NCBI GenBank assembly: GCA_001801685.1
Contig: MGYJ01000055.1
Location: 1-62,124, forward strand
DNA: 62,124 bases
Reading direction: 5' to 3'
DNA from: Gammaproteobacteria bacterium RIFCSPHIGHO2_12_FULL_63_22
GTDB taxonomy: Bacteria; Pseudomonadota; Gammaproteobacteria; Xanthomonadales; Xanthomonadaceae
A program made the translations under genes and the position numbers. This document shows, piece after piece, positions 1,641 to 37,592 of the stretch (positions are counted from its first letter, which is position 1; each line of letters begins with the position of its first letter). The notes under the pieces were generated by a model. That model had not been told where the DNA came from and ran no database searches. It was given only the letters and a program-made list of their open reading frames with translations.

Positions 1641-2999
1641 ATGGATTACGCATCATTTATTGCAGGCAAATGCCAGTCGCGTTCACATGGATTCGACCCG
1701 ATTTGGATTCCCGATTTTCTTTTCGATTTCCAGGTGTCGCTCGTCGAATGGGCTATCGGCAAAGGCCGAGCGGCTATTTTTGCCGAGTGCGGTCTCGGAA
1801 AAACTCCGATGCAGCTCGTCTGGGCTGAGAATGTAATTCGCCACACAAACAAACCTGTACTCCTGGTGACGCCGATCGCGGTCGGATCACAGGCAGAACG
1901 CGAAGCCGTCAAGTTCGGCATCGAGGCAAAACGAACCCGTGATGGCAAGATGGCCGGCGATAAGTGTATATGGATCACGAACTACGAACAATTGCATAAG
2001 TACGATCCGGCGATGTTTGGCGGATGCGTGTGCGACGAATCGTCAGCGATCAAAGACTTTAAGACGGATCGAAAAAAGGTAGTGGTCGAGTTTATGCGGA
2101 CAATACCGTATCGCCTGTTATGCACAGCGACGGCCGCACCGAATGACTACTGGGAACTCGGCACTTCCAGCGAAGCGTTGGGGTATCTCGGCTATCGTGA
2201 TATGCTAACGCACTTTTTCAAAGAGGAAGTAAAAAAGGATTATCTAGGGTGGGGTCGAACGAAATACCGTTTTCGTGGACACGCGGAGCAACCATTCTGG
2301 CAGTGGGTCTGTTCATGGGCACGTTCACTACGCAATCCGTCCGACCTTGGATTCGACGATAGCCGGTTCGCTCTTCCTGATTTGATTGAACATGAAATTG
2401 TCGTCAAACTCGATTCTCCGCGCAATGGCCTGCTGTTCGATATGCCGGCTAGCGACATGCGGGAAGAGCGTGCCGAACGGCGGCGAACGATCAAGGAACG
2501 CTGTGAACGAGCGGCGGCCATCGCCAATGAATGCACGGATGCGTCGGTTGTTTGGTGCGACCTGAACCCAGAAGGGGACTTGCTGGAGTCGCTGCTCGAC
2601 GATTGCGTTCAGGTCAAGGGTAGCATGTCTGACCAGGCGAAAGAAGAGGCGTTGCAGGCGTTCTCTTTTGGCCAGATCAGGCAGATGGTAATCAAACCGA
2701 AAATTGGAGCATGGGGACTAAACTGGCAGCACTGTGCTAATGTCGTTGAGTTCCCCACGCATTCGTTCGAACAACACTATCAGCTAGTTCGCAGATGTCA
2801 TAGGTTCGGCCAGACACGGCCGGTCCATGTATCGTCAGTGATTTGCGACAGCGAACAGGGAATCGTGGCTAACCGACGACGCAAAGCTAATCAGGTCGAC
2901 ACGATGTTTACCAGTATCGTTCGCCATATGGGCGATGAGTTGCATCTTGTTTCGCATGATAATTTCCCCGTAAAAGAGGATTGCCCGGCATGGCTGTGA
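1641..2999 (+). CDS. SNF2-like superfamily 2 helicase/ATPase
   Basis: 452 residues; GGAGG eight bases before ATG 1641. Motif I A-E-C-G-L-G-K-T at 48-55, motif II C-D-E-S-S at 131-135, motif III T-A-T-A-A-P-N-D near 162, and motif VI Q-x-x-R-R-C-H-R-F-G-Q-T-R-P near the C-terminus, typical of SNF2/DEXD phage helicases. DESS replaces the usual DEAH. It overlaps the next gene, a DNA methyltransferase, by ten bases. This pairing is common in phages and may serve DNA modification or anti-restriction, but the substrate is not visible here. Confidence 0.88.
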   Translation: MDYASFIAGKCQSRSHGFDPIWIPDFLFDFQVSLVEWAIGKGRAAIFAECGLGKTPMQLVWAENVIRHTNKPVLLVTPIAVGSQAEREAVKFGIEAKRTRDGKMAGDKCIWITNYEQLHKYDPAMFGGCVCDESSAIKDFKTDRKKVVVEFMRTIPYRLLCTATAAPNDYWELGTSSEALGYLGYRDMLTHFFKEEVKKDYLGWGRTKYRFRGHAEQPFWQWVCSWARSLRNPSDLGFDDSRFALPDLIEHEIVVKLDSPRNGLLFDMPASDMREERAERRRTIKERCERAAAIANECTDASVVWCDLNPEGDLLESLLDDCVQVKGSMSDQAKEEALQAFSFGQIRQMVIKPKIGAWGLNWQHCANVVEFPTHSFEQHYQLVRRCHRFGQTRPVHVSSVICDSEQGIVANRRRKANQVDTMFTSIVRHMGDELHLVSHDNFPVKEDCPAWL

Positions 3000-3967
3000 T
3001 CGACCAGGAAGTCACGGACAGATATGCGATTTACAACGGTGATTCTGCGGAAGTGCTGCAATCTATTCCGGATGAATCCGTAGGGTTGAGTATCTACTCC
3101 CCTCCGTTCGCGACGGAGAATGGAGGGGCACTGTACAATTACAGTTCGTCGCTCCGTGACTTGTCGAACTCGCGAACGTACAAGGAGTTTTTCGATCATT
3201 ACCGCTTTATTGTCGAGCACATTGCCCGCGTCACGAAACCCGGTCGCATCTCGGCAGTGCATTGCATGGACGTTCCGAAACAGGGAGCGAACATCTGCGG
3301 ATACTCCGACTTTCCCGGCCACATTATCGCTCTTCATGAATCGCTAGGCTTCGACTACTTACCGCGTATCTGCATATGGAAAGAACCGCTTGCCGTTCGA
3401 AATCGGACGATGGCAAAAGCTCTTGCCCATCGCCAGATCGTAGAGGATTCTACGAAGACGAACGTCGCGGCCGCCGACTACCTTATTCCGTTTCGCAAGC
3501 GAGGGGACAATCCGGAGCCGGTAGTGCATCCGACCGGACTATCTGAGTATGCCGGAGAGCGTACCGTTCCGGCCGAACTCCATCGCTATCGCAACTGGAA
3601 AGGAAACCAGATAGAGAACCGGTATTCACATTGGATTTGGCGGAACTATGCTTCGTGCTTTTGGGACGATATTCGTTTGGGTCGCGTGCTCCCCTACGAA
3701 GAGAGTAAGGACGAAGGTGACGAGCGGCATATGCACCCGTTGCAGTTGGATGTAGTGGAACGAGCAGTCATATTATGGAGCAATCCCGGCGACGTGGTAT
3801 TGACCCCATTTATGGGTGTTGGCAGCGAAGTGTACGGGGCGGTGACGGCCAGAAGAAAAGGCATCGGTATCGAACTAAAGCCATCGTTCTATCGTCAGGC
3901 AGTAAAGAATCTTCACAAAGCCGTTGAAGAGTCGTCGACCCACAAGGAGCAATTATTGTTTTCATAA
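2990..3967 (+). CDS. Beta-class DNA methyltransferase (N4-cytosine or N6-adenine)
   Basis: 325 residues from ATG 2990. The catalytic motif S-P-P-F lies at residues 37-40, and the SAM-binding F-M-G-V-G-S-E motif lies near the C-terminus, the motif order of beta-class enzymes. S-P-P-[YF] is more usual in N4-cytosine methylases and D-P-P-Y in N6-adenine ones, so m4C is the better guess. The region between (W-K-G-N-Q-I-E-N-R and the Trp-rich S-H-W-I-W-R-N-Y) probably holds target recognition. Overlaps and probably works with the SNF2-like helicase; no restriction nuclease is adjacent. Confidence 0.88.
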   Translation: MAVIDQEVTDRYAIYNGDSAEVLQSIPDESVGLSIYSPPFATENGGALYNYSSSLRDLSNSRTYKEFFDHYRFIVEHIARVTKPGRISAVHCMDVPKQGANICGYSDFPGHIIALHESLGFDYLPRICIWKEPLAVRNRTMAKALAHRQIVEDSTKTNVAAADYLIPFRKRGDNPEPVVHPTGLSEYAGERTVPAELHRYRNWKGNQIENRYSHWIWRNYASCFWDDIRLGRVLPYEESKDEGDERHMHPLQLDVVERAVILWSNPGDVVLTPFMGVGSEVYGAVTARRKGIGIELKPSFYRQAVKNLHKAVEESSTHKEQLLFS

Positions 3968-6141: not shown

Positions 6142-6625
6142 AGGCCAAAAACTTGTATTGCTTTCCGTCAAAGATAATTCGGCCTTCTTCCATAAGTTTG
6201 TAGCAGATTTTTTCGAGTTGAAAATGGATGCTTTTGTGTTCAACACGAGTACAAATCAAGAGATTTTCTATTCGGTTATCATCTTTGATTCCATTGATAT
6301 GGTTAACTACCTCGTTAGGCTTCAATCGCCTTTTTGCGTTTCTCTCGGCAACCAAGACATGCTCAGGAACATATTTGTTGTAGCCTCGACCTGGAGCGTA
6401 GACCATGACGTATCCCCATCGGTCAATAAATCGCCCGCCGTTCCAAGATGGATGGTCCTTACCTCTGAGTATCGGCCGGCAAGGCAATGGTCCGCACCCT
6501 GCCTTGCGGCGGTGGTATTGGAGCGTCTGATAGTACGCTCCAACAGATTTGGCGATCGCTCTAAGGCTTTCGCCGTCAGCCAGTCTCTGCTCGATTTCAT
6601 CTACAGTAATCGTAGTTTTTGTCAT
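6140..6625 (-). CDS. HNH homing-type endonuclease
   Basis: 161 residues from ATG 6625 (TTG 6640 possible). N-terminal helix-turn-helix-like segment (T-V-D-E-I-E-Q-R-L-A-D-G-E-S-L-R-A-I-A) and an HNH_3 core, V-P-E-H-V-L-V-A-E...V-N-H-I-N-G-I-K-D-D-N-R-I-E-N-L. More AT-rich than its neighbours and opposite in orientation. It lies between the methyltransferase relic at 6052 and the methyltransferase at 6652, which suggests a homing insertion. Confidence 0.85.
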   Translation of the reverse strand: MTKTTITVDEIEQRLADGESLRAIAKSVGAYYQTLQYHRRKAGCGPLPCRPILRGKDHPSWNGGRFIDRWGYVMVYAPGRGYNKYVPEHVLVAERNAKRRLKPNEVVNHINGIKDDNRIENLLICTRVEHKSIHFQLEKICYKLMEEGRIIFDGKQYKFLA

Positions 6626-6631
6626 ACAGGT

Positions 6632-6660
6632 ATTATACAAATAAATCTGCCATGCAACAA
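6632..6660 (-). promoter_or_regulatory. Sigma70-like promoter for the HNH gene
   Basis: On the minus strand TTGTTG (6660-6655), 17 bases, then a perfect TATAAT (6637-6632). The -10 box ends six bases before ATG 6625, so the transcript would start at or next to the start codon, giving a leaderless message. Confidence 0.55.
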
Positions 6661-7500
6661 CTAACTGTACTTAGTCTGTTTAGCGGAATTGGTGGACTCG
6701 ATCTGGGGTTAGAGAGGGCGGGTATGCGGATCGTTGCCCAAGTCGAGATTGACGACTTCTGTCGTCGCGTGCTGGCCAAACACTGGCCGGACGTGCCGCG
6801 GTGGGACGACGTGACGACGTTGGATTGTGACGAGGTGTTGCTGAAGTGCGGGCCGATCGACGCTGTTGTCGGCGGAGTACCGTGCCAGCCGGCGAGCGTG
6901 GCAGGGAGGCGCAAAGGTGGGACTGACAGCCGCTGGCTCTGGCCAGCTGTTTTGCGAGTTGTGCGGGAGATCAACCCCGTGTGGGTGCTGGCAGAGAACG
7001 TGCCTGGACTCGTTAGTCTGCCAGGTGGAGCGTTTGACGGGATTCTCTCCGCCATCGAGACAATGGGTTACGAAGTCCAGACGTACTGTTTTGGTGCTGG
7101 ACATGCCGGCTCGCCCCACCAGCGGAGGCGAATATGGTTGGTTGCCCACACTGACCGTGTGTCAACGGGGGAATCGGAGCAGTTACCACAATGCGAAGTA
7201 TCGTCCGTCGTTGCAGCAGATCGCTCGTCGTGGCTGGCTCCCGATGCTGCAAGCACAAGACGCAACGGGCGGACCGAACAAGATAACAGCGGACAGGAAA
7301 CGCAACACACGCGGATTCTCACTGATGATGAAGGACATAGCTGGGGGCTGTCTATGCCCCCGCTTCTGCGAGGCGTACATGGGGCTCCCCGATTGTTGGA
7401 CCGAACTGCGAGAGTCAAAGCCCTAGGCAACAGCGTAGTGCCAGCCTGTGCCGAGATGATCGGCCGGGCGATATTGGAGGGGGAACGCAATGAGCGATGA
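6652..7500 (+). CDS. Cytosine-C5 DNA methyltransferase
   Basis: 282 residues. Motif I L-S-L-F-S-G-I-G-G-L-D-L-G-L at 7-20, catalytic G-V-P-C-Q-P (Cys78), motif VI E-N-V-P-G-L, motif VIII H-Q-R-R-R-I-W-L-V-A, and motif X L-G-N-S-V-V-P near the end. Between VIII and X this frame looks poor, while the +1 frame (about 7130-7426) carries family-like sequence such as C-E-A-Y-M-G-L-P-D-C-W-T-E-L just before motif X. A pair of compensating indels is therefore likely, and activity is uncertain. Overlaps the next gene by 11 bases. Confidence 0.8.
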   Translation: MQQLTVLSLFSGIGGLDLGLERAGMRIVAQVEIDDFCRRVLAKHWPDVPRWDDVTTLDCDEVLLKCGPIDAVVGGVPCQPASVAGRRKGGTDSRWLWPAVLRVVREINPVWVLAENVPGLVSLPGGAFDGILSAIETMGYEVQTYCFGAGHAGSPHQRRRIWLVAHTDRVSTGESEQLPQCEVSSVVAADRSSWLAPDAASTRRNGRTEQDNSGQETQHTRILTDDEGHSWGLSMPPLLRGVHGAPRLLDRTARVKALGNSVVPACAEMIGRAILEGERNER

Positions 7501-9798: not shown

Positions 9799-10623
9799 AT
9801 GGCGAAGAAATCAGAGTCATTGGAACTTCAGATTGTCCGCGTCGATCGCGGGCAGGTCTCGTTCTGCATCTTGGGGACGACGCCGATCATATTGAATCGG
9901 ATGTCGGAAAAGGCCATGCACGAACTGTTGATGCCGCGGAAGAAAACGGCGGCGGATAAGGCGCAGAATCTCAAGCACGATCCGATGGCGGAGTTTCTGG
10001 CGTCACCGTACCTTGATCTGTCCGACGATGGGCCGACGTACATTCAGCACCTATCGTCTGCGTTCGGAGCGGCATTGCGGAACGCGGCATTGGACGTGCC
10101 GGGTTCATCAAAGGCACAAATCGGCCGGCTCGCATGGGTCGAGGGTGAGCGGGTGTCGATCTATGGTGTGCCACAGATGCTGATGAGCGTGACGCGATCG
10201 GCTGACATGAACAAAACGCCTGACGTTCGGACGCGCTGCATCGTGCCGAGGTGGGCTGCGTATATCACGGTCAGCTTCGTGATTCCGCAATTGAATGCGA
10301 CGGCAATCACGAATCTGTTGTGCAGCGCCGGCATGTCGCAAGGCATCGGCGATTGGCGACGGGAAAAAGGAAAAGGCAACTACGGATCGTTTGAACTTGT
10401 TTCCCAGGATCATCCGGAGTTTGCCAAGATCATCGCGACTGGCGGCCGTGCGGTACAGATCGATGCGATGGCGAAGCCGGAAAGTTACGATCGCGAAACG
10501 CAGGAACTTTTTTCGTGGTTCCAGGAGGAACTTCAGCGACGTGGTCGTGAAGTTGCTGTTGGGAACGGCAAAGCTGCACGGCGGACGAAGGCGACATTGC
10601 CGATTCCAGCTTCTGAGGAATAG
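9799..10623 (+). CDS. Unknown protein (274 aa) preceding the 5-nt-phased tract
   Basis: AAGGGGAT upstream of ATG 9799. Features: I-L-G-T-T-P-I-I-L-N-R-M-S-E-K-A at 24-39, a middle domain with L-S-S-A-F-G-A-A-L-R-N-A-A, and a glycine-rich G-I-G-D-W-R-R-E-K-G-K-G-N-Y-G-S-F at 182-198. I recall similar uncharacterised proteins in other phages but cannot name a family. The Gly-rich basic loop could bind nucleic acid (inference). It is immediately followed by the repeat tract 10624-11040, with no intervening gene. Confidence 0.75.
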   Translation: MAKKSESLELQIVRVDRGQVSFCILGTTPIILNRMSEKAMHELLMPRKKTAADKAQNLKHDPMAEFLASPYLDLSDDGPTYIQHLSSAFGAALRNAALDVPGSSKAQIGRLAWVEGERVSIYGVPQMLMSVTRSADMNKTPDVRTRCIVPRWAAYITVSFVIPQLNATAITNLLCSAGMSQGIGDWRREKGKGNYGSFELVSQDHPEFAKIIATGGRAVQIDAMAKPESYDRETQELFSWFQEELQRRGREVAVGNGKAARRTKATLPIPASEE

Positions 10624-11040
10624 TCGCGGCTGGGCTTGTCACGGCGAGTTGAGTCCTGTTGCGGCCGGTCCGGGCGGGGCAAGGAGAGGCGAGTTACGGC
10701 TGGCAAGTCGGGTCCTGTTGCATCACGTCCCGTAGCGTTGAGTCGTGGCAAGTCCGGATCAGGCATGGTTTCGCTGGCGTGTTCCGTCTGGTCCGGACAA
10801 GATCCGGCGGATTAAGTCGCGGTTGATCTTGGTGTGTCCATGCACGGCTGGCGAGTCGAGACTTGTCGCTGCGGGGCTGGTCCTGGTGGTTTTCGTTTTG
10901 GCACGGCTGGCATGGTCTGTCCTGTCCCGTCGGGGCAAATCATGGCTAGATGAGTTTAGGCAAGGCTGGCGTGGCCGGTTATCTCACGTCGGGGCATGAA
11001 GCGGCAAGTAAAGTCATGGCACGGTTTCCTTTTTTAGGAG
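10624..11040 (+). repeat. Noncoding tract of degenerate 5-nt words, first block
   Basis: Read on the plus strand, the sequence falls into 5-base words of the form N-G-(G/T)-(C/T)-N, for example AGTCG, TGGCA, AGTCC, TGGCG, CGTCC, TGTCC, AGGCA. The phase is reset now and then by a 4-base word, typically at GGC-TGGC. The phrase GCACGGCTGGCGAGTC occurs at 10842-10857. No start/stop-supported gene with a ribosome site is present; the period is not a multiple of three. This differs sharply from the gene-dense surroundings. Role unknown. Confidence 0.75.
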
Positions 11041-11046
11041 TCATCA

Positions 11047-11571
11047 ATGAACGACAAACGAAAAGCGATTGTCGCGAGGCTCGAAAATATCGCAGCACGA
11101 ACTGGCGGGCGGATTACTCCGTCCGCCGTCGTTGAGGACGCACGATCAGCGACAAGTCCGCTGCATGGTCTGTTTGACTGGAGCGACAAATCCGCCGCGG
11201 CGAAGCACCGGCTCGACATCGCGCGGCGGATCATTCGATCCGTTCGGGTTGAAGTCCATACGTCGATTACCGATATTTCGGTTCCGAGTTACATTCGTGA
11301 TCCGCGACTTTCGGAAAGCGAGCAGGGATACTGCCCGACGGTCAGCATCAAGGACGATGCCACGATGGCAAGCGACGTGTTGCAGCGTGAGCTAACGGCA
11401 ATGATCGGATTGCTGACACGCTCGTATGGTATCGCGGAAGTAATCGGCGTTTCGGCAGAAATGTCCACCATCCTTCACCGAACGCGGTTGCTGCGCGAGT
11501 TGCTCGTTGAGCGTGCGGCGAGTCGCAAAAACGCTGGTAAAGCGGCTTCGGCCGCGGTGCCGGCGGGGTAA
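11047..11571 (+). CDS. Unknown protein (174 aa) between the two 5-nt-phased tracts
   Basis: TTTAGGAGTCATCA before ATG 11047. Basic N-terminus (M-N-D-K-R-K-A-I-V-A-R-L), an A-A-R-T-G-G-R-I-T-P-S-A-V-V-E-D-A pattern, then R-R-I-I-R-S-V-R-V-E-V and a helical C-terminus with L-L-R-E-L-L-V-E-R-A-A. No known domain. Its isolation between two unusual noncoding tracts suggests a functional link, unproved. Confidence 0.7.
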   Translation: MNDKRKAIVARLENIAARTGGRITPSAVVEDARSATSPLHGLFDWSDKSAAAKHRLDIARRIIRSVRVEVHTSITDISVPSYIRDPRLSESEQGYCPTVSIKDDATMASDVLQRELTAMIGLLTRSYGIAEVIGVSAEMSTILHRTRLLRELLVERAASRKNAGKAASAAVPAG

Positions 11572-12094
11572 TTGGCGCGGCATGGCGGGGCTTGGTTGAG
11601 TCCCGTCTCGTTTTGGCGTGGCGCGGCTGGTGATGTTAGGCAAGGCGTTTCCTGGTTTGTCGCGGAGAGGCTGGCGAGTCAGTACCGGTTCTGTTTCGGC
11701 ACGGTGGGGTAAGGCACGGCTGGCTTGATTAGTCGTGTCTCGGCTCGGAGAGTTATGGCTGGCGAGTCAATCCCGGCAAGTCAGATCCGGGCGCGTCGCG
11801 TTTAGGCACGGCTGGCGAGTCCGGGCTAGTTCGGGTGCGGCATGTTGTGGCAAGGCGCTACTGGCTAGTCCCGGCATGTCCAGTATCGTCTGGTCAGGAT
11901 ATGGCACGGCTGGCGAATCACGTCTTGTTGGGGCTGGGCGGGATTTGGCAGGGCACGGATTGGCAGGCGTGGTGCGATTAGTCTAGTCGCGATAGGTCGC
12001 GGTAAGTTCTGGCAGGGCTGGTCTTGGCTGGCGTTGCAAGTTCGGGCTGGTCGGGTCTTGATATGACATGTCGCAGCAGGATAAGGCACGGTTA
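11572..12094 (+). repeat. Noncoding tract of degenerate 5-nt words, second block
   Basis: Same style as 10624-11040: words such as TGGCG, CGGCA, AGTCA, AGGCA, AGTCG with occasional 4-base slips at GGC-TGGC. The phrase (GGCAC)GGCTGGCGAGTC recurs at 11669-11680, 11757-11768 and 11805-11821, with near copies at 11713-11724 and 11903-11919. It separates the end of the plus-strand arm from the convergent minus-strand block. No gene seen. Confidence 0.75.
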
Positions 12095-12523
12095 TTATTT
12101 GTCTCCGTCCGGAAGATCATCCCGGCTAGTTCCAGCAGGCGGTACGTAAAACAGGCACGTATCGCACGCGGTCCGCGTTGTTCGGCCGCCGTTTAGCTTC
12201 GCTGCATCAACGCTATCGCATTGGTACACGATCAGTTTTTCACAACACGCATTTTTTAATATCGGTCCAATGTCATCACATGCCGGCCTCCCTTGTTTGG
12301 GTTTTTCTTCTACCTGTACCCATTCCACCGGCTGCGGCCGCGCGATCGCCAAAAATCCTCGCAACGTCGGCGTCAAGCTCGTTTCAGTCGGTGGCTGGCC
12401 GTCGATCCATTCGGCCTGGCAGCGGGGACACGGCCAGTTCGGGTTGCCGGGTCCGGCAATGCGCGTGATGCCGTGCGGGAGCAGAAGGGAGCAGGTCGAG
12501 TTTTGCCAGTGGGGACAGGTCAT
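12095..12523 (-). CDS. Cysteine-rich protein of unknown function (142 aa)
   Basis: C-P-H-W-Q-N-S-T-C near the start, C-P-R-C-Q-A-E-W at 32-39, then further pairs (N-A-C-C, A-C-D-T-C-L-F-Y). Likely one or two zinc sites. Last gene of the long minus-strand block; starts four bases inside the upstream gene. May be a virion-associated or late protein by position. Confidence 0.6.
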   Translation of the reverse strand: MTCPHWQNSTCSLLLPHGITRIAGPGNPNWPCPRCQAEWIDGQPPTETSLTPTLRGFLAIARPQPVEWVQVEEKPKQGRPACDDIGPILKNACCEKLIVYQCDSVDAAKLNGGRTTRTACDTCLFYVPPAGTSRDDLPDGDK

Positions 12524-16876: not shown

Positions 16877-17319
16877 GGGGAGACCTCCATGACGCACAGC
16901 GTTTGCGAGCCGCTGTCCGCGATCGCGTAGATGGCTTGCCCCGGCGACAGGTCGATCTCGACCGACTCCGAAGCGTCCAGGGGGAAACTGTTCGCATCCG
17001 TCGCGGGCGTAACGCTGCTTATCCAGATCGTCGCCGTGTTGTCCGGATGGGCCTTCAGGCTGATCGTGCGCCGGCCGGCCAGCCCGCTTGCCACGATCTG
17101 TCCGCTGGTCCCCGTGACGGTCTCTTGCGAAGTCGCAAACGTGGCCAGTGCCGTCACGTCGGCCGGCATCGGATTCGTGGCCGATACCGGCCCGTCGTCC
17201 GCGTCCATCGCGCCGAGGACCAACTTGAAGCCCGGAACGTGGACGCCCGATACGTCATCGGTCCATACCACGATGGTCCCCGCTCCGCTGTCCGGCTTGA
17301 TCCGCGTGTTATCAGCCAT
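16873..17319 (-). CDS. Probable virion structural protein (148 aa)
   Basis: Beta-rich with T-I-V-V-W-T-D-D-V-S-G, I-S-L-K-A-H-P-D-N-T-A-T-I-W-I-S-S-V and V-E-I-D-L-S-P-G-Q-A-I-Y-A-I-A-D, the kind of jelly-roll accessory protein often found near tail genes. Overlaps the portal gene end and the following gene start. Confidence 0.6.
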   Translation of the reverse strand: MADNTRIKPDSGAGTIVVWTDDVSGVHVPGFKLVLGAMDADDGPVSATNPMPADVTALATFATSQETVTGTSGQIVASGLAGRRTISLKAHPDNTATIWISSVTPATDANSFPLDASESVEIDLSPGQAIYAIADSGSQTLCVMEVSP

Positions 17320-20300
17320 CGCTGCCTTCTTCCACGATCTCGGCAGACTGAATCTCGCCCATCGTGCCGCGGTTCAGCTTGACCGTCTTCGTCTTCGGCT
17401 TCGCGGCCGGCGCGGCCTCGACCGTGACGGTTGGGTTGATCGTCACGTTAGCCGGCGGGGGCGGGTCTACCTGGACGTTCACGACGGCTGGGGGCGGCGG
17501 GTCGATATGGACGTCGATCTTTGCAGGAGGCGGAGCTTCTACAGTCACGTTTGCCGGCGGCGGCGAATCAATATGCACGTCCACGTTCGGAGCGGGAGCG
17601 GCCTGGACGTTGATCGTCGGCTGGACATTGACGACGATCGGCTCGACTTTCTTCGCTTCTTCCGTGACTGTTTCCGCTCCCAGCGACAACCGGACGCCGC
17701 CCCGCTTCTCAGGAAACATCATCTTTGCCAGTTCCGGCGGTGGCGGCGACATGCGGTACGGATTCTCCGGCGGCTGTCCCGTCCGGATCCATACCTGGGC
17801 CTCCAGGACGCCGCGTGCGGCTGCATCGGAGATAGAAAGAGGCGTCTTTCCTGTTCTGCACGAAAAATGACGAGGGGGCGACATCTGCCGGTACAGCGGA
17901 TCGTCGCGCCGATATATGTTCGATCCGCCGATGCCGGCCGTTGCAAACCATTCACAGATCGGCGTTCGCCGGCCGTCATGGATCGACGAATCGGAAACGT
18001 AGGGGAACTCGTCCGACACCATCGGGTTGTCGAGGATATCATCCAATCCGCGGGCGTAGGCGGTCTGGACGTTCGTGCGGAAGACGGTCTCGACTCGTGC
18101 CGGGTGCAACGGGGTCGCGCCGCCGAATACGTCCCGGTCGAGCTTCTCGCGGAAATCTTCCAGCGTATCGCCTTGCGTGATCGCTTCCAGGACCGCGTTG
18201 CGGATCGCCCCGATGGATTCCACGTTGTCCACGTCCGATACCGTGAACGCGAACCGGCGAGCTTCCGCCGACAAGGAATCGAACTGGTCCCGCGTGACAA
18301 GCGTGCGGTCCGCGATATCCTGCGCGGCCTTGTCGATCAGCGGCAAGCGGATTCGTGGCTCGCCCTCGGGGAAGAGCGATCCCATCGCGTCGACGGGCGG
18401 CGCCCCACCGATTCCGGCCGGTGGACGGGCGATTCGCTCCAGGAGTGCCGGCGGGAGCGTTTGGTGGATATCGTCCGCGCCGAATACCCAAGCGGCCAAC
18501 GTGGCGTCGGACAAGTTCCCGGCTGCGATCGGCAGGTACTCGTCCATGACGGCTCGCACTTCCGCCATGATGGTGTCGACGTCCCGCGTCGGCAGCAGCG
18601 GACCGACCCGGTTAAGGATTTGCTCCCGCACGTTCGCGATGGCCTCGACCGAATGGCCGACGGACTGCTCGATGATTGCGTCGACGATCGGGAGTTTCGC
18701 TTGCGACCGGTCCGGCAAGTCGGCAATGGCCATCTGGATGGAATCATTCTTCGCTGGCCGGCCGCGTTTCGGACGCTGGACGAATCGGTAATCCCCGGCG
18801 TCCCGGACACGCTTGGGCAATTGCTCTACGTGATCGCAGCGGCGGACGGAACCGGTCGGGGTGATGTATTCCAGGGCCATGCGGACGGAATCGGGCGTTG
18901 GTTCCACGGGGGCCATTGGTTCCGCTGGCGGTATCGGTGGTTGCGTAGGCTTGTCGGTGGTTGTCGGTGGTACGACAGGGGATGTCGGTATCGCCATCCG
19001 CGTCGTCTTCGTTCGCCGCTTCGGCATCATGACATAGCTCGTATACTCCTTCCCGTTCTTCGCCCGCACTGTCACTGCCCGCATGCGGCCGTTGCCGAGT
19101 GACATTCGCTGTTGCGATTGCCCGCCGCCGAACAACCCCGCCAGCGGATTGCCGCCCGGACTACTGCCGTTCGTCCCGCCCCCCGGCCCGCCGGGACTGC
19201 CGCCTGCCATCCCCTGTCCTTGTCCGGGGTCTTCCGGTAACAACGACGCCGAATTGATTGCGTACTCCGGGATCTCGCCAAAGTTCAACTCGATCAACGG
19301 ATCGGCGATCATCTTCCGGAAGTCGCGCAGGATTTCCAGCAGCACGATCTCCAGCCCGGAGTAGAACGCGGCCGCCGGCACGCCGCGACCGAATGTCCCG
19401 GTTCCCTGCGATTGCACCACTTCAGGTGGGATGCCAAGCCCCTTGATGATGTCAATGTCGAGGTCTTTCGGATACTCGCGCAGTTCCTGCCCACTGCCGT
19501 TGATGGTCGGCTCCTTCAAGTCCCATGTCGGCTTGCCGGAATCGTCCAGGTCGTTCGGCAGCGTCAGGACGCCGCCCGTCTTCCACAGTTCCAAGATTTG
19601 CCTCGCCACGTCCTGGTAGTCGACGAACGAGCCATCCGGCATCGTGCGACCGCCAGGCGGATGGCGCAGGATACCGCCCCAAAATGCGTTTTTGTGGAAC
19701 CACAGTTTGCGGATATCGACCGCGCCGCCCCGGCTCCACTTCTCGTACCACGGGTCGTAAGCGGATCGCAGCCGCGAGCGGCCGAACCAACTGCTGTAGC
19801 GGGCATCATGCCGGTTCCACCATGCTTTCGGCGTCATGATGTCGACCGCCCCGCTCGTGTTGCCCGTCACGCGGATTCCGGCAAAGTCGCCATCCTGCGT
19901 CAATGGCTTGGCGTCCAACGGATGGAAGTCGGCCACCATGTCAAACTCGACATGCGGCCCGGACCTGCGGTACAGGATCTCGCCAGCCGATACGCCGTAC
20001 TCGATCGACCGCAGCACTTTCGCGAGCGACGTTTCCCAGAAGCGTTTCAGTTGATCCGTGACGAACTTCGCGACCCGCTGATCCTTGCTCTCGACCTTGA
20101 TTTTGTCGATTGCGTTGAACATCGGTCCCTTGATGATCGCCAGCCCGAGCGATACTTGCGGATCGTACAGCATCTTCTCAAGCCAGTAGATGCTGAACAT
20201 CGGCTTGTCGGCCTGGAACATCAGCACGGACGGGAGCCACGTCGGCTTGTAGGCGGTCGTCTGCCGTTCGATGAGCTGTTGCTTCTTCTGCTCTGAATTG

Positions 20301-20335
20301 TGCGAGCGTTTGCTACGCGGGCGTGGCATGGCCAT
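17312..20335 (-). CDS. Portal protein (DUF935-like) fused to Mu-F-like head morphogenesis protein
   Basis: 1007 residues. Residues about 30-370 match a Mu gp29-type portal (F-S-I-Y-W-L-E-K-M-L-Y-D-P-Q-V, W-F-H-K-N-A-F-W-G, G-I-P-P-E-V-V). A Gly/Pro linker follows. About 560-830 holds the Mu F/SPP1 gp7-like minor head domain with T-V-F-R-T-N-V-Q-T-A-Y-A-R-G and C-E-W-F...H-F-S-C-R-T. The last 100 residues are repeats of P-P-P-A-x-V-x-V, an extended proline-rich tail. In most phages these are two genes; the fusion fixes stoichiometry. DNA channel plus internal minor head protein is the expected role. Confidence 0.85.
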   Translation of the reverse strand: MAMPRPRSKRSHNSEQKKQQLIERQTTAYKPTWLPSVLMFQADKPMFSIYWLEKMLYDPQVSLGLAIIKGPMFNAIDKIKVESKDQRVAKFVTDQLKRFWETSLAKVLRSIEYGVSAGEILYRRSGPHVEFDMVADFHPLDAKPLTQDGDFAGIRVTGNTSGAVDIMTPKAWWNRHDARYSSWFGRSRLRSAYDPWYEKWSRGGAVDIRKLWFHKNAFWGGILRHPPGGRTMPDGSFVDYQDVARQILELWKTGGVLTLPNDLDDSGKPTWDLKEPTINGSGQELREYPKDLDIDIIKGLGIPPEVVQSQGTGTFGRGVPAAAFYSGLEIVLLEILRDFRKMIADPLIELNFGEIPEYAINSASLLPEDPGQGQGMAGGSPGGPGGGTNGSSPGGNPLAGLFGGGQSQQRMSLGNGRMRAVTVRAKNGKEYTSYVMMPKRRTKTTRMAIPTSPVVPPTTTDKPTQPPIPPAEPMAPVEPTPDSVRMALEYITPTGSVRRCDHVEQLPKRVRDAGDYRFVQRPKRGRPAKNDSIQMAIADLPDRSQAKLPIVDAIIEQSVGHSVEAIANVREQILNRVGPLLPTRDVDTIMAEVRAVMDEYLPIAAGNLSDATLAAWVFGADDIHQTLPPALLERIARPPAGIGGAPPVDAMGSLFPEGEPRIRLPLIDKAAQDIADRTLVTRDQFDSLSAEARRFAFTVSDVDNVESIGAIRNAVLEAITQGDTLEDFREKLDRDVFGGATPLHPARVETVFRTNVQTAYARGLDDILDNPMVSDEFPYVSDSSIHDGRRTPICEWFATAGIGGSNIYRRDDPLYRQMSPPRHFSCRTGKTPLSISDAAARGVLEAQVWIRTGQPPENPYRMSPPPPELAKMMFPEKRGGVRLSLGAETVTEEAKKVEPIVVNVQPTINVQAAPAPNVDVHIDSPPPANVTVEAPPPAKIDVHIDPPPPAVVNVQVDPPPPANVTINPTVTVEAAPAAKPKTKTVKLNRGTMGEIQSAEIVEEGSDG

Positions 20336-26282: not shown

Positions 26283-28565
26283 TTATTCCGGCGCAATCGC
26301 CATATCTTTCGACAGGTGTTCGGCTTCCGCCTCCCAGCACATGCGGAATTTCATCGTCCGATTCGTAGGCGTCTTTTTTCTGTGCAACGCCAGATAGAAA
26401 GCGATGTCGAAATCCGGCGACGTTTGCGGCGTGTTGTCGCCAGTGAAACGGTAGACGTGATTCCGCACCAGTTGGGTGCGAATTAGCGTGCAGCCGAACC
26501 CGTTGCCGTCCAGGTAGTCATAGCCCTCGCCGCGGTCGACGAAGTGGATTCGCTGGCCGGCGTCGTTCAACCGCCATGCGACGTACCCTTTGTGGAATCG
26601 CGACAGGTACGGGCCGGCCACGCTTCCCACGTCATGATCGAAGCCACGCATCAGCAGGTCGATCCCGTCGTCTGGCGGAATACAGTCGTCCTCCAGCGAC
26701 AGGACGTAAGGCGAGTCGATCGACAGCCGGATCTGTTGCCACATGTCTGCCATCGCGGTACGGACGGCCGTACCAGCCTTCTTCCGGGGTGCGTCGGCCA
26801 GATCCCGCTCGCCGACTCGCATGGCCCGTACCCGAACGTCGGGATAGCCGCACCGGATCAACCACTCCCGAACCATTGCGGAAAACTCGGCATCGTGCGA
26901 CGTATTGACCAGCAGGATAGCTACCTGCTCTCGCGGCCACGTTTGGCGGTCGAGCCACGCGGAGTACGGTCCCCACGCCCACATGCGGCCAGCAAGCGGC
27001 GTCACGATCGTCACCCGCTCATACGCCAGCCCAGCCCGGTGGTAGTAATCGGTCTGCTTGAGCACCTTGGACCGCTGTGGCTGCTCGCCTGCCAATCCGT
27101 GCTTACGATAGCGGTAGACGGTCTGCTGCTTGGCAGCCTTCCATCCGCGTTGCACGATCCGGCGCCACCAGTCCCAGTCTTCTGTAATCAGCGGATCCTC
27201 ACGGACCAGCGGGCCGATCAGGTCCAACGCCTCGCGGCGGACGATCGCCCCCGCATGGATGTAGTTGTCCCATTCGATATGGTCGGGGTCGAAGGTCGGC
27301 ATTTGCAAAATGCGCGTCTCTTCCCCAAAGCAGTGCATGTCAGAGTAAACCAGCCCTATGCCTGGGTCTTTGAACATCGCATAGCCGTTATCGAGATATG
27401 CGGCCGGCAATTCGTCGTCGGCGTCCAGGAAGCATACCAGCGGGGCCGACGTTGCGTGCAAGCCGGCCGCTCGCGCCGTCGCCACGGACCCGGCGTTGAT
27501 CCGCATGTACCGCACGCCAGCGAACGATCTGGCTACCTCCTGCGTGTTGTCCGTTGACGAATCGTCTACGACTACGATTTCATCAGGCCGGACCGATTGA
27601 TTGATTACCGATCGGATCGCGTCGCCAAGGAACCGGCCGTAGTTGTGGCAGGGGATCACGATGGCGATAGGAACATCACGGTGTCCGCGTTCGGCTATCT
27701 TCTGCCGCCGTTTTCGTGGCAATAGTTCCGTCGCGTCGAACTCTTCACCGCGGAATGAGTCCGACTTGCGCGAACCGTTCGCTTTCCATGTCGGCGATAT
27801 CGTGCTCTCTTCCCCGACGTGCTGGGCAAGGCTCGGCGTGTGGTAGTAGACGAGCCGGTGTTCGTTCTGTGCCCATGTACCAATCGCCATTTCGACGTTT
27901 CGCTTGCGGTCCCACTCGGCAATGACCTTCGCGTGAAGCAATTCCTTCGCCACGTCTGGCGGGAACACCCACGCACATGCCCCCCATAGGTTCTCGCCCC
28001 GGTTCGTGATGAACCAACCATTGCCGGTGTCGTAGGTCGCGGGCGTGTAGATGGAGCAAAGCCCGACTCGCCCCGGTGGCCAGAGCGATGCTTCCAGGTA
28101 TTGCCGAACGCAATGCGAGAATACCACGTCATCTTGAACGATCAGGTAGGCATCCGCGTTCGGTTCGCGGATCGTCATTTCCGACAGTGCCCGATGCCAG
28201 TTCTTCCAGATGCCGCGAGCGGGCGGATCGTCGCGAAACACCAGCGGGTTCCGCCAGCCGGCGGACGCCAAGGAATCGACGGTCTTGTGGAAGTAGTCCT
28301 CGCGTGTCGGAATCGTCGTGATCCCGACACACCACGTATTGACCCGCTGCTGGCCGGACACGCGGACCTCTTCAATGATCCGTTGCGACGGCGGCGGCGG
28401 AATGTTGTCCCCTGGATCGAACGGCCGGCGGTACTCGCACTTGGCGCAATGCTTGGCGGTCGTCTCCGGGAACATCGGGTGCGAGCAACTGTAGATTTCG
28501 GTTGGCGATCCGCCCTCATTGCGAAGGGCGATCAGGTCTCCGAGGTGAACGCAATGGCCGTGCAA
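26283..28565 (-). CDS. Three-domain glycosyltransferase
   Basis: 760 residues from TTG 28565, chosen because GGGAGGG lies four bases upstream and earlier ATGs fall inside the capsid gene. N-terminal glycosyltransferase-like domain (V-G-I-T-T-I-P-T-R, V-Q-D-D-V-V), a central GT2 domain (I-V-I-P-C-H-N-Y-G-R-F-L-G, V-V-D-D-S-S-T-D-N-T, L-D-A-D-D-E at about 313-405), and a third domain (V-T-I-V-T-P-L-A-G-R, S-L-E-D-D-C-I-P-P-D-D). Each has a DxD-type metal site. Probably glycosylates a virion or host surface molecule; linked to the head operon. Confidence 0.85.
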   Translation of the reverse strand: MHGHCVHLGDLIALRNEGGSPTEIYSCSHPMFPETTAKHCAKCEYRRPFDPGDNIPPPPSQRIIEEVRVSGQQRVNTWCVGITTIPTREDYFHKTVDSLASAGWRNPLVFRDDPPARGIWKNWHRALSEMTIREPNADAYLIVQDDVVFSHCVRQYLEASLWPPGRVGLCSIYTPATYDTGNGWFITNRGENLWGACAWVFPPDVAKELLHAKVIAEWDRKRNVEMAIGTWAQNEHRLVYYHTPSLAQHVGEESTISPTWKANGSRKSDSFRGEEFDATELLPRKRRQKIAERGHRDVPIAIVIPCHNYGRFLGDAIRSVINQSVRPDEIVVVDDSSTDNTQEVARSFAGVRYMRINAGSVATARAAGLHATSAPLVCFLDADDELPAAYLDNGYAMFKDPGIGLVYSDMHCFGEETRILQMPTFDPDHIEWDNYIHAGAIVRREALDLIGPLVREDPLITEDWDWWRRIVQRGWKAAKQQTVYRYRKHGLAGEQPQRSKVLKQTDYYHRAGLAYERVTIVTPLAGRMWAWGPYSAWLDRQTWPREQVAILLVNTSHDAEFSAMVREWLIRCGYPDVRVRAMRVGERDLADAPRKKAGTAVRTAMADMWQQIRLSIDSPYVLSLEDDCIPPDDGIDLLMRGFDHDVGSVAGPYLSRFHKGYVAWRLNDAGQRIHFVDRGEGYDYLDGNGFGCTLIRTQLVRNHVYRFTGDNTPQTSPDFDIAFYLALHRKKTPTNRTMKFRMCWEAEAEHLSKDMAIAPE

Positions 28566-28583
28566 GATACCCTCCCTAAACAA

Positions 28584-28615
28584 GCAAGGCCGGCCAAGTG
28601 ATTGGCCGGCCTTGC
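28584..28615 (-). terminator. Terminator hairpin after the major capsid gene
   Basis: Perfect 14-bp stem: GCAAGGCCGGCCAA (28584-28597) with TTGGCCGGCCTTGC (28602-28615), 4-base loop. On the minus strand it follows the capsid stop at 28651 and is followed by CTTGTTTAG, a weak T-tract. Likely reduces transcription into the glycosyltransferase, leaving capsid mRNA most abundant. Confidence 0.75.
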
Positions 28616-28650
28616 GAGGCGACGCGACGGAACAGCAGGAGGCGAACTGC

Positions 28651-29790
28651 TTACGATCCGAAAACGACCGTGCCATAGGCCGACGCATTCGGCACGTACA
28701 GGGCCGGCATGGCGTTGTCAATCGCGTACAGGACGTGGGCGGTCGGATCGTCCATCCACTTGGCGTAGCTGTACAGACCCATTTGCACGACCGGCGGACG
28801 GTTCGGACCGTCGCTGATCGGCTCGGAACCTTCGAGCATCTCGAAGACTTCGCTCGTCGGCTTCGGACCGAACCACGCCTTGTTCTCTTCGACGAACTTC
28901 GTGTAGGTCTCGGAACCAGGGGCCCCGACCTCCATGCCCTCGTCCGTGATGATCCACTCGACCCACGGTACGGCCATCAACCGGCCGCGGAACTCGTTGA
29001 TCGGCGCTCCGGCCGAATCGGTCCCGATCTGGCGTTCATAGATGTCGAACACTTTGTTGCTGGAGCCGGCCCGGTTGCGCAAGCCAGTGTTGTTCGTGAC
29101 GTAGCCCCAAATGGCTGCGTTCGTCACGACTTGCTCCAGGCGTTGGCCGCAAAGCTGTTGGAACGCGGCATTGATCGCCGACAGATCGCCGAAGATGTCG
29201 GCGGCGGCATCGTCCCAACTCGTGCCGATGATATCGCCGGCTCCCAGCATGTTGAGCTGGTCTTTGTTGCCGGCCGGCATCCGGAAGTTGATCTGCTGGC
29301 CGGTCGAATCGGTGAAAGCGTAATACCATTCGCTCCCGTTCGGGATCATATAGAGCGAATCCCGCATCATGCCAACCGTGAGCATGGTGCGGAAGTTCGC
29401 CGCCTCTTGCCCGAGGACGCGAAGCTGCTTCTTGATGTAGCTTTCGCCGGCTTCGTCGAACTCGCCGGCCGTGCCGCCGATCCGGCGAAAGTTGTGAACC
29501 TCTTCCGCCAGCAGCCAAACCGATTCGGCCATGCGGGGGAAGGTGCCGTCGACCCGGCCGACCTTCTTCCGCGTCACGCGAGCGGCCGGCGTGCCCGGAG
29601 CCGTCGCACGGCCGACCTTGCGGCTGGCGTCGAAGATATCGTAACCGAACTGGCGATGGCCGATCCGGGAGACGTTCGGTCCGCCCGGCTGGAAGCCAAA
29701 CGCATTGAGAAGGGAGGACGAAGTGGCGGCGACGCGCTGGACGACTTTCGTCGTTACTTCTGCCCTCAGGAGGGTGTCGATGGAAGCCAT
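28651..29790 (-). CDS. Major capsid protein (lambda gpE-like)
   Basis: 379 residues, within the usual size. N-terminal helix, then G-H-R-Q-F-G-Y-D-I-F-D-A-S-R-K-V-G, then a charged arm (T-R-K-K-V-G-R-V-D-G-T-F-P-R-M), a G-Q-R-L-E-Q-V-V-T-N-A segment, and a C-terminal half with E-F-R-G-R-L-M-A-V-P-W-V-E-W-I-I-T-D-E. It resembles the major capsid protein E family (HK97 fold). Preceded by a structured RNA leader and followed by a strong terminator, as expected for the most expressed gene. Confidence 0.75.
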   Translation of the reverse strand: MASIDTLLRAEVTTKVVQRVAATSSSLLNAFGFQPGGPNVSRIGHRQFGYDIFDASRKVGRATAPGTPAARVTRKKVGRVDGTFPRMAESVWLLAEEVHNFRRIGGTAGEFDEAGESYIKKQLRVLGQEAANFRTMLTVGMMRDSLYMIPNGSEWYYAFTDSTGQQINFRMPAGNKDQLNMLGAGDIIGTSWDDAAADIFGDLSAINAAFQQLCGQRLEQVVTNAAIWGYVTNNTGLRNRAGSSNKVFDIYERQIGTDSAGAPINEFRGRLMAVPWVEWIITDEGMEVGAPGSETYTKFVEENKAWFGPKPTSEVFEMLEGSEPISDGPNRPPVVQMGLYSYAKWMDDPTAHVLYAIDNAMPALYVPNASAYGTVVFGS

Positions 29791-35348: not shown

Positions 35349-37592
35349 TTACTTCACCACGTAAGGCATGAATGAACTCGTGCCGACGTTCGACGCGAGA
35401 CGGCAAGCGTAGGAAATTGCGTCGCAATTATGAACGAGTATGCCTGAAGAGAAGTATTCGTGATTGCCTTCAATCGTTAGATTGTAAACGACATGCCGCC
35501 CTGGCAAGATTGCTGGCAATTCTACCGCATGCACGCGAACAATTCTTTTGCTTTGCATACCGGCTGACAGAAAACACTTTTCCGCATGTTGCGCATATTC
35601 TGTTTTCGTTGTCGATCTTTGATTTACGACGTGACCTGAGACTGCATTTTCCTGAGCAAAACTTGCTCTTGCCAACATATTCATGACAGTAGTCTTTTCC
35701 GCATTCTGAGCATATGGCGCAACGACGTATTGCTTTTCCAAATCCGTGTTGTTTTGCATGACGCCGATGCCATTCTTTTCCCTCTGCTGATTGATGCCAT
35801 GCGACAGTAAGGTGACGTATCTTAGCAAGATGCTGCAAAGCTTTTGTTGTGGCGTAGTCTCCTCGCTCGCCATGAACCTTATGATGTTTTTCCGACGATA
35901 CACATTCAAGATTTGATATATCGTTGTTAAGGAAGTCTCCATCTTTATGATGGATATGGCATCCGTCAGGAATAGGGCCGTAATGAGATTTCCAGATTTC
36001 CTGATGAAGGTGCTGAATGCCTCTTTTAACGTGCCCGCCATGCGGCCGATAATATCTTCGATATGCCTCTTGTTTTGCTTCGGGATATCTCCGGAAGACA
36101 ATGCCGTTAAAAACGATTGATTCTGATTTAGCTCCTGATTTCCACATGGCACCATTGTATCTTCGTAAGAGATAGCGTCGAGTGGTATCCATCCACGATC
36201 AAGAGAAAATACGGGATGGTTTCTGGTCCCAACAAGTTCCATGCCGTTTGATAGTCGCACGCGACACACGGTTGCAGAATGGCTAGTTATTCCAGATGCG
36301 ACTACCTTTCTTGTTCCTGATCTTGTCGTAACAAAATCCCCTACGCGAATCGTGTCGATGCGACGTGGACCGCTCGGCGTACTGATTAGTGTATCCGCTA
36401 CAAAACATTGGTCATCGTGTGATCCGTCCGGAAACGCCAACAACTCCCTCTCAAATTCTGGCACCCACGCGGCATCTTTTGGTAGCCATACCTTCCCCTG
36501 CTCAAACTTTACCGACGCCGCCTGTGCCCGCACGATCTTGTCGCCCTTCGGATGGATCGGCCGGACCTGAACGCCCTGCCGATTAAGCAACTGAATCATG
36601 GCCCGCTGGTACGCCACGTCCTCGACCCCGACCCATTGCAGCCCGTACTCATTGACCAACGCCTTGATTCTCTCCAGCGTCTCCGGTGCCCCGATGCGGC
36701 CGCGGTAGCAGTGCCGGATGATGAGCGTCCCGGTACTGTCGTGCTCGCAGCACAGGATAACCGTGTAATCCGCCGACGTCGATTCGCTCACAGCCAGATC
36801 GACTACGCCGAACGGCAGGAACGAGCGTTGCGGGACGATGTTCGGACCAAGGATGTATTGCTGTTCCTGTGCCCGCCATGATTGGAACCATTCGCGCTTG
36901 AAAATGTTGCCGTCCGCCACCACGTCCCAATCGCCGTCGAGCAATTGCGCCCGCGTGATGTGGTCGAGGTGGCCCAGAGCCTGGACGTATTCCTCTTGGT
37001 CAAGGAACGGATTGTCACGCAGGCCGGCGGGAACGAATGTTCTCTTTAGACCAGGGTCAACGATGAATCGCTGTTTCACCCAGTCGTTGCCAATACCTCC
37101 AGGATTGCTTGCTGACAACATCCTGATAGGTATGCGACTCCCTTCAAGGCGACGGAGCCGACTGAACAAATATAGGTAATCCTCTTCTTTGAACTGCGTT
37201 AGCTCATCAAACACAACGGTCTGACATTCCATGCCTTGATAGCGGTAACGGTCGTTTCGCTGGTCGAGGTATCCGAACGTGATCGTTGCTCCGCTTGGGA
37301 ACCGCCAACGCTTGTCTGTCCCATTCCATGTCGCTCCGGACCCTTGCAGCCAATCGTGCGAGCGATCCATCAATGCCCCTGGCAATGCCAAGTCTGCATA
37401 AGTACGACGGAAGAGAATTGCGGAGTAATTAGGATGATGAACGTACTGCAAAACAGACATTAAAAGAACATCACTTTTCCCGGAACCTGCTGAACCTCCG
37501 TACAGTATTTCAGTGCTGTCCGTTCTTAGGAATGCCGTTTGCTTTGCCGTTGGTCGGTGTGGGCAGAATGGGATGATCGGCCGCGTGTCCAT
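35349..37592 (-). CDS. terL: Large terminase subunit, interrupted by an intein
   Basis: 747 residues from ATG 37592, which gives a usual-length N-terminus before Walker A (L-Y-G-G-S-A-G-S-G-K-S); a longer frame reaches into the small-terminase gene (ATG 37727 possible). Walker B V-V-F-D-E-L, motif III-like S-A-S-N-P-G-G-I-G, nuclease domain with V-V-D-L-A-V-S-E, V-G-V-E-D-V-A-Y-Q, and D-G-S-H-D-D-Q. After that Gln comes a 327-residue intein, then C-D-A-I-S-Y-A to the end. The spliced protein would be about 420 residues. It packages DNA into the procapsid. Confidence 0.92.
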   Translation of the reverse strand: MDTRPIIPFCPHRPTAKQTAFLRTDSTEILYGGSAGSGKSDVLLMSVLQYVHHPNYSAILFRRTYADLALPGALMDRSHDWLQGSGATWNGTDKRWRFPSGATITFGYLDQRNDRYRYQGMECQTVVFDELTQFKEEDYLYLFSRLRRLEGSRIPIRMLSASNPGGIGNDWVKQRFIVDPGLKRTFVPAGLRDNPFLDQEEYVQALGHLDHITRAQLLDGDWDVVADGNIFKREWFQSWRAQEQQYILGPNIVPQRSFLPFGVVDLAVSESTSADYTVILCCEHDSTGTLIIRHCYRGRIGAPETLERIKALVNEYGLQWVGVEDVAYQRAMIQLLNRQGVQVRPIHPKGDKIVRAQAASVKFEQGKVWLPKDAAWVPEFERELLAFPDGSHDDQCFVADTLISTPSGPRRIDTIRVGDFVTTRSGTRKVVASGITSHSATVCRVRLSNGMELVGTRNHPVFSLDRGWIPLDAISYEDTMVPCGNQELNQNQSFLTALSSGDIPKQNKRHIEDIIGRMAGTLKEAFSTFIRKSGNLITALFLTDAISIIKMETSLTTIYQILNVYRRKNIIRFMASEETTPQQKLCSILLRYVTLLSHGINQQREKNGIGVMQNNTDLEKQYVVAPYAQNAEKTTVMNMLARASFAQENAVSGHVVNQRSTTKTEYAQHAEKCFLSAGMQSKRIVRVHAVELPAILPGRHVVYNLTIEGNHEYFSSGILVHNCDAISYACRLASNVGTSSFMPYVVK
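35427..36407 (-). mobile_element. Intein in the terminase nuclease domain
   Basis: Begins with Cys (C-F-V-A-D-T-L-I-S-T-P-S-G, block A), has block B G-T-R-N-H-P-V-F, and ends V-V-Y-N-L-T-I-E-G-N-H-E-Y-F (block F) and G-I-L-V-H-N before the +1 Cys (block G). It sits between D-G-S-H-D-D-Q and C-D-A-I-S-Y-A, the conserved nuclease metal site. Residues 90-300 have no LAGLIDADG motif; instead another frame encodes an HNH protein there. AT-rich compared with the exteins. Confidence 0.9.
35470..36192 (-). CDS. HNH endonuclease in an alternative frame of the intein
   Basis: 240 residues, same strand as terL but in another frame, fully inside the intein. HNH_3 core: C-H-I-H-H-K-D-G-D-F-L-N-N-D-I-S-N-L-E-C-V, then two or three zinc knuckles (C-A-I-C-S-E-C-G, C-S-G-K-C, C-A-T-C-G). 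Composition and motifs show this is the real coding frame of the middle of the intein; the terL frame there looks like shadow sequence kept open. Likely the homing nuclease that spreads the intein. Confidence 0.85.
   Translation of the reverse strand: MDTTRRYLLRRYNGAMWKSGAKSESIVFNGIVFRRYPEAKQEAYRRYYRPHGGHVKRGIQHLHQEIWKSHYGPIPDGCHIHHKDGDFLNNDISNLECVSSEKHHKVHGERGDYATTKALQHLAKIRHLTVAWHQSAEGKEWHRRHAKQHGFGKAIRRCAICSECGKDYCHEYVGKSKFCSGKCSLRSRRKSKIDNENRICATCGKVFSVSRYAKQKNCSRACGRIASNLARAACRLQSND

Follow-up and report, generated by a model that had tools for sequence, protein, structure and literature searches.

In the window, i.e. the whole analysed stretch of 62,124 nucleotides, two genes alternate with two noncoding tracts on one strand (Table 1). 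The first gene, at 9799, encodes a Vipr homologue, a RAMP-type protein with a glycine-rich loop. A profile of its family was built from 49 relatives (46 sequences comprising the window and viral contigs, and three from phage records) and matched the PDB entry 36pp_D, 'SUSP1 Vipr protein', with an E-value of 3.8e-8. The match spanned the region of the glycine-rich loop, and 36pp_D was the sole PDB protein found with this profile at E ≤ 1. Residues G182, G184, R187, G191 and G196 of the loop were invariant in the 46 sequences; the reading frame is open in the window and the invariant residues are kept. The predicted structure of the product (pLDDT 80.3, pTM 0.78) matched 75 PDB chains at E ≤ 0.001, the best with an E-value of 1e-5. 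Among the 50 matches listed, all were CRISPR effector entries (Csm/Cas7 subunits), with query-normalised TM-scores of 0.30 to 0.43; the likeness of the predicted model to these subunits is distant.

Table 1. Features of the locus between the vipr gene and the ORF adjoining the second tract, with positions in the window
Feature	Position	Strand	Evidence
vipr, 274 aa RAMP homologue, phrog_4652	9799..10623	+	phrog_4652 E 1.6e-9; 36pp profile match
Putative vrRNA array 1	10624..11046	+	lag-5 z 7.2, word-model z 16.0; 81 units, 5 one-base junctions
One-base junctions of array 1	after triplets at 10698, 10772, 10846, 10905, 10964	+	segment parse
AGGAG	11037-11041	+	past array 1, ahead of vap start
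Candidate vap (vipr-accessory), 174 aa, phrog_15946	11047..11571	+	phrog_15946 E 1.2e-16
Putative vrRNA array 2	11572..12094	+	lag-5 z 7.6, word-model z 20.4; 106 units, 10 one-base junctions
ORF adjoining array 2	12095-12523	-	ORF list

The product of the second gene, at 11047, was predicted to be mostly helical (model pLDDT 86.6, pTM 0.48), and no PDB fold match was obtained with its model at E ≤ 0.001. Phage records with relatives of this gene numbered 33, matching the vipr gene in both number and genera, and the gene at 11047 fits the role of the accessory gene vap. The minimal VIPR locus, consisting of a vipr and a vap gene, is accordingly present in the window.

Both noncoding tracts, together 946 bp in length, had been described in the initial annotation as about 940 bp running in a five-nucleotide rhythm, with words of the type N-G-(G/T)-(C/T)-N and occasional four-base resets at GGC-TGGC. 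The rhythm, and its excess over shuffled sequence, was recovered in both tracts, where the lag-5 autocorrelation was compared with 300 dinucleotide-preserving shuffles each (Table 1). Autocorrelation at lags 5, 10, 15 and 20 was far above that of the shuffles, and the lag-5 signal was absent from genes 9799 (z -0.4) and 11047 (z -0.8). A word model consisting of the triplet G-(G/T)-(C/T), i.e. GKY, and a free two-base spacer was fitted by dynamic programming and divided the tracts into 187 units, located at 10628-11025 and 11574-12092. The scores of 280.8 and 370.1 compare with 131.4 +/- 9.3 and 170.3 +/- 9.8 for the shuffles (300 each; maxima 159.5 and 196.3), while the reverse strand, with scores of 111 and 139, did not fit the model. 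The proposed words were borne out by an exact GKY in 148 of the 187 triplets, the remaining 39 deviating from it. Position 1 of the triplet was G in 89% and 92% of units in the two tracts, and the dinucleotides between the triplets were near-random, with an entropy of 3.75 and 3.87 of 4 bits. The four-base resets proved to be one-base spacers, which occurred 15 times (T in 12 cases, A in three) and in 10 cases as exactly GGC-T-GGC; one 3-base spacer was also present.

Between the one-base junctions, the segments of array 1 comprise 14, 14, 14, 11, 11 and 16 dinucleotides, the sixth running beyond the array end at 11025 with about 11 of its dinucleotides inside. The segments of array 2 comprise 4, 7, 6, 9, 7, 1, 8, 9, 9, 10, 12 and 12 dinucleotides. 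Counted in this way, between junctions and not between mapped transcript ends, all six segments of array 1 hold 11-14 and six of the 12 segments of array 2 hold 9-12 dinucleotides. In the remaining contig, scanned in 500-base windows with 250-base steps, the best word score was 184.5 (mean 114), below both tracts. The lag detector gave signals elsewhere in the contig at the contig ends only; these were rejected as further arrays, being a 15-nt tandem repeat without this word pattern. A cruder lag-5 scan weakly flagged positions 39294-39684 (0.370, threshold 0.36). A protein-coding repeat was likewise rejected as an explanation of the tracts, no ORF of 100 aa lying wholly within either of them. 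Rfam yielded no hit at gathering scores for the whole window and none at E ≤ 1 for 10600-12150, so that no Rfam hammerhead is placed between the putative guides. Predicted promoters (3 vs 1.7 +/- 1.3) and predicted terminators (4 vs 3.8 +/- 1.8) showed no excess over shuffles.

The absence of similar tracts from related genomes had been named in the initial annotation as an outcome that would refute its reading; such tracts were found in most relatives. Matches to the vipr gene were obtained in 113 stretches of viral contigs, and the best 80 of these 113 were used. The first two were the window's own contig and one identical to it over 8,024 nt, leaving 78 others. In 75 of these the lag detector located an array tract, and the distance from the gene match to the nearest one had a median of 105 bases and did not exceed 577. 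Two of the three loci without a detected tract lie on contigs that end within the gene, and the third (L041) was missed by the detector and has array segments in common with another locus (L042). The 76 control loci (661,737 bases), a non-random set assembled by pattern searches, contained no tract. Every one of the 108 parsed tracts, three phage records being among their sources, lay on the same strand as vipr. The relatives differ in their words, with GGC-NN, GTT-NN or GAC/GGC-NN among the examples printed, and 8 to 12 dinucleotides were the commonest segment lengths when very short ones at the edge of a parse were excluded. In bacterial genomes, 26 of 31 vipr loci, belonging to Alphaproteobacteria, Binatia, Selenomonadaceae, Chloroflexi and others, had a tract within 3 kb, the weaker of these vipr matches having E-values up to 7e-4. 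In the ten phage loci that were read, from Mycobacterium, Gordonia and cyanobacterial phages, vipr, vap and array occurred together; the arrays were very clear, and the gene pair was annotated as hypothetical proteins, often close to an excisionase. A contig from a second metagenome (L010) was identical over 8,024 nt, including array 1 and a portion of array 2. Some annotated 'hypothetical proteins' of Mycobacterium phages lie on or across guide arrays (L203 893-1081, L204 926-1168 and L201 780-1166; Pippy 47, Florinda 59 and Donkeykong 48) and are probably not genes.

Tracts of this appearance had been thought to correspond to no described system. They match, however, the Viral Interference Programmable Repeat (VIPR), posted in April 2026 (PMC13142463). 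VIPR combines Vipr, a RAMP protein of phages, with an accessory gene, vap, for which six families are published, and with vrRNAs of 9-16 YNNGG repeats in which GGY and NN alternate (PMC13142463). The vrRNAs are described there as reading double-stranded DNA with one base skipped between dinucleotides, and the system, which is CRISPR-like, as silencing genes of competing phages (PMC13142463). The same paper mentions seven types, staggered arrays with overlapping vrRNAs, and the copurification of RNA with Vipr of phage SUSP1 (PMC13142463). A literature search yielded no account of VIPR other than PMC13142463. We consider it very probable from this comparative analysis that a phage VIPR locus occupies 9799-12094, with vipr, array 1, vap and array 2 on one strand and a role in RNA-guided silencing. 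The tracts are a striking and real feature, but one that belongs to a system described in 2026.

As a positive control, the vipr profile located SUSP1 Vipr at 28474-28653 of the SUSP1 genome (E 2.7e-10), and the lag detector, with its threshold lowered from 0.15 to 0.12, revealed two tracts (peaks 0.22 and 0.17) flanking vipr and vap. A Vipr RAMP gene, a vap gene and flanking intergenic GGY/NN tracts are thus shared by both loci. SUSP1 Vipr has 195 aa compared with 274 aa in the window, and the guides of SUSP1 stand apart from one another, with a tail recurring in the gaps as seen by eye, whereas the array in the window runs on without interruption, its segments set off by one-base junctions and its triplets of the GKY form. 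A SUSP1-like vap was not found in the window locus by profile comparison, the profile of the 174-aa protein missing SUSP1 vap (0.3 bits). Given the differences from SUSP1 in vap and in the continuity of the array, the system in the window is regarded as VIPR, yet not as SUSP1-like. Going by its description, the likeliest published match for the uninterrupted array is the staggered type with overlapping vrRNAs (fig. S18 of PMC13142463). Some features count against the VIPR assignment: the middle triplet base is T rather than G in about 41% of units, half of the 12 segments in array 2 fall short of nine dinucleotides, the window arrays show no constant 3′ tail after each guide as in SUSP1, and searches with seven segments in between 1 and 41 genomes, and with six of these in viral contigs, yielded no convincing natural target.

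Class 1 CRISPR-Cas systems, with their Csm3/Cas7 backbone, share the RAMP-like fold (predicted here) and the reading of a guide RNA by lined-up subunits. They differ by a disruption at every sixth position, as described in PMC13142463, compared with a five-nucleotide step here. No CRISPR-like repeats were found in 10600-12130 and no cas genes among seven window proteins (PADLOC), with a weak Cas8b match of gene 11047 (E 0.019). Triplets spaced by two bases are also known from TRAP, in which (G/U)AG triplets wrap a protein ring; the triplet in the window is not (G/U)AG, however, and the protein resembles CRISPR RAMPs.

Judging from the published VIPR work, the arrays would be transcribed into vrRNAs, along which Vipr subunits would align, each gripping one GKY triplet and exposing two bases. 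The exposed pairs of letters would jointly read double-stranded DNA, with one base skipped per dinucleotide, and one stretch from junction to junction would correspond to approximately one guide. Once bound to DNA, the complex would silence one of the genes of a rival phage or prophage, assisted by vap. Two of the functions suggested in the initial annotation, a repeated protein footprint and a regulatory RNA, would be combined in such a guide RNA, because each pentamer would be held by one protein subunit; nothing pointed to the recombination or replication site also suggested there.

Target patterns of 9 or 10 dinucleotides per segment with a one-base skip were searched for seven of the 18 window segments. 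Segment T1.4 gave no match with up to three mismatches in its own genome (0/1), T1.5, T2.11, T2.12 and T1.3 gave none with up to two mismatches in 25 genomes each, and T1.2 gave none in 41 genomes. Matches of T2.10 with two mismatches were obtained in four of 41 genomes, compared with two for a reversed control pattern. In viral contigs, exact seeds of eight dinucleotides were found in 9 (T1.4), 16 (T2.11), 2 (T1.5), 26 (T2.12), 6 (T1.3) and 13 (T2.10) stretches, none of which extended convincingly into the positions not used for the seed. The best viral match, of T2.12 in L140, agreed at 22 of 24 positions; by our own estimate about one such match is expected by chance in a collection of this size, so that it counts as no more than a possible target. 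DNA copies of the region in relatives of the host were also rejected: all 41 genomes, the window's own included, gave a match at E ≤ 10, the best outside the window having an E-value of 0.00128, and these short matches, many of them inside gene 11047, are taken as chance. When 610 guides were compared all against all, 18, 32, 14 and 23 had a best E-value below 0.1 at skips of 0, 1, 2 and 3, in a pool that included loci fetched with one-base-skip patterns of the window and in which the skip-3 matches include array copies; no conclusion on the skip is based on these counts. With 556 guides the skips showed no clear difference. Support for the one-base skip from codon phase (z 2.74) was dropped, as rotated controls reached z 1.8 to 2.5, and this test did not separate the one-base skip from other skips. 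The vipr gene was found in one of 250 genomes drawn from the host's order, that one being the window's own, so that true rivals may be missing from the collections; for the same reason the infection may be a rare one, or the contig may have strayed into the bin.

The lack of a target, together with the irregular segments of array 2 (4, 7, 6, 7, 1 and 8 dinucleotides among the 12), could also indicate that the VIPR locus is inactive in this phage, the gene being intact and the array eroding. We regard this as improbable, since vipr is open with its invariant residues kept, the 8,024 nt shared with the second metagenome show no mismatch, and tolerated word variants can give irregular parses as well.

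The choice among the scaffold triplets was analysed within the arrays. In the window, which base stands second in a triplet depends on the base following that triplet (mutual information 0.135 bits, with 0 of 1000 permutations as high), the sole clear link of nine associations tested. Away from the junctions, GTY was used in 15 of 16 units before C and GGY in 16 of 21 units before A. The 32 relatives with mixed words did not follow this second-base rule: the frequency of T before C agreed with expectation (z -0.06), and before A there was a slight excess of T (z 2.03), the reverse of the pattern in the window. In the relatives the third triplet base shifts instead, with raw GGC:GGT counts of 48:164 before C, 142:92 before A, 223:133 before G and 74:106 before T. 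Across 88 tracts, GGCC was scarcer than in triplet-permuted versions (217 vs 339.5 expected; 2 vs 10.0 in the window). Predicted folding was also less stable for the natural tracts than after permutation of their triplets (mean z 0.90, above 0 in 63 of 88) or of their dinucleotides (mean z 0.72, above 0 in 65 of 88); in the window, z with permuted triplets was 0.01 for array 1, i.e. no effect, and 1.59 for array 2. Because the 88 tracts are mutually related, were cut at 420 nt in the relatives and were permuted 30 times each, these folding and GGCC counts overstate the independent evidence. The suggestion in the initial annotation of a structured RNA is thus not favoured, the arrays being on average predicted to be less self-paired than their permuted versions.

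The scarcity of GGCC and the weak folding read as selection keeping the RNA open for Vipr, and avoidance of a restriction site is another possible cause of the former. The choice of GGC, GGT, GTC or GTT might follow the next base such that GCC, the complement of GGC, is avoided, which would make the scaffold an anti-folding code instead of a constant filler, allowing one uninterrupted transcript to carry many single-stranded guides. Such a code might also permit neighbouring or overlapping guides with one-base junctions to do without separate tails. This reading of the scaffold as a code is tentative and rather doubtful, our already low estimate having been reduced slightly because the relatives contradict the second-base rule. 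The scarcity of GGCC in the arrays is the new finding here, and a small one.

The regular short words adjoining the gene of a small helical protein could alternatively act at the level of double-stranded DNA, as sites of a centromere, iteron or packaging kind which a phage protein would cover in steps of 5 bp. Such sites have no obvious need of hypervariable spacer bases or of the reduced self-pairing of RNA predicted in 63 of 88 tracts. All 108 parsed tracts lie, moreover, on the strand of one RAMP-fold gene, and the solved homologue is named Vipr and described as RNA-guided in PMC13142463, which makes DNA sites very unlikely. Least likely of all are relics, left by a pentanucleotide microsatellite that has degenerated or by a repeat-protein gene that has broken down. 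The 39 deviating triplets and the short segments of array 2 would speak for relics. Decay, however, should blur the five positions equally, contrary to the G at position 1 and the near-random NN; the tract is kept in 75 of 78 relatives, the words and dinucleotides of the examples shown being different; and a frame of 100 aa inside the tracts is lacking.

The analysis indicates VIPR with long uninterrupted arrays in the pair phrog_4652/phrog_15946, which is of unknown function in PHROGs and occurs in Mycobacterium and Gordonia phages, a cyanophage and many uncultured phages. The Mycobacterium smegmatis phages Saal, Brocalys and Florinda offer laboratory hosts for this type of array, and the pattern of scaffold choice is a concrete, testable statement on how guides remain readable.

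VIPR loci are mostly found in phages or prophages, and carriage by a phage is indicated here by a terminase and a Mu-like portal in the window and by relatives in IMG/VR and in phage records. The contig start recurs at 62041 (50 bases tested), which would give an 84-base end overlap (1-84 and 62041-62124). The phage genome may thus be circular or circularly permuted; the overlap may also be an assembly artefact, because it lies within the 15-nt tandem repeat. This repeat occupies 1-240 and 61930-62124 with variants, and its translation would give a pentapeptide-type repeat. Two DNA methyltransferases, of the N6/N4 and cytosine types, are encoded upstream of the VIPR genes at 2981-3967 (+) and 6619-7500 (+). 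Within the large terminase subunit, at 35349-37904 (-), the part from about residue 500 onwards carries an intein-like Hint domain, with Hint_2 above the cut-off and Intein_splicing just below. A single frame of 1007 aa at 17312-20335 (-) combines a Mu-like portal domain with a minor head domain of the Mu gpF type, which falls just under the Pfam cut-off but is supported by PHROGs. At 26283-28721 (-), a family 2 glycosyltransferase domain occurs in a protein of 812 aa.
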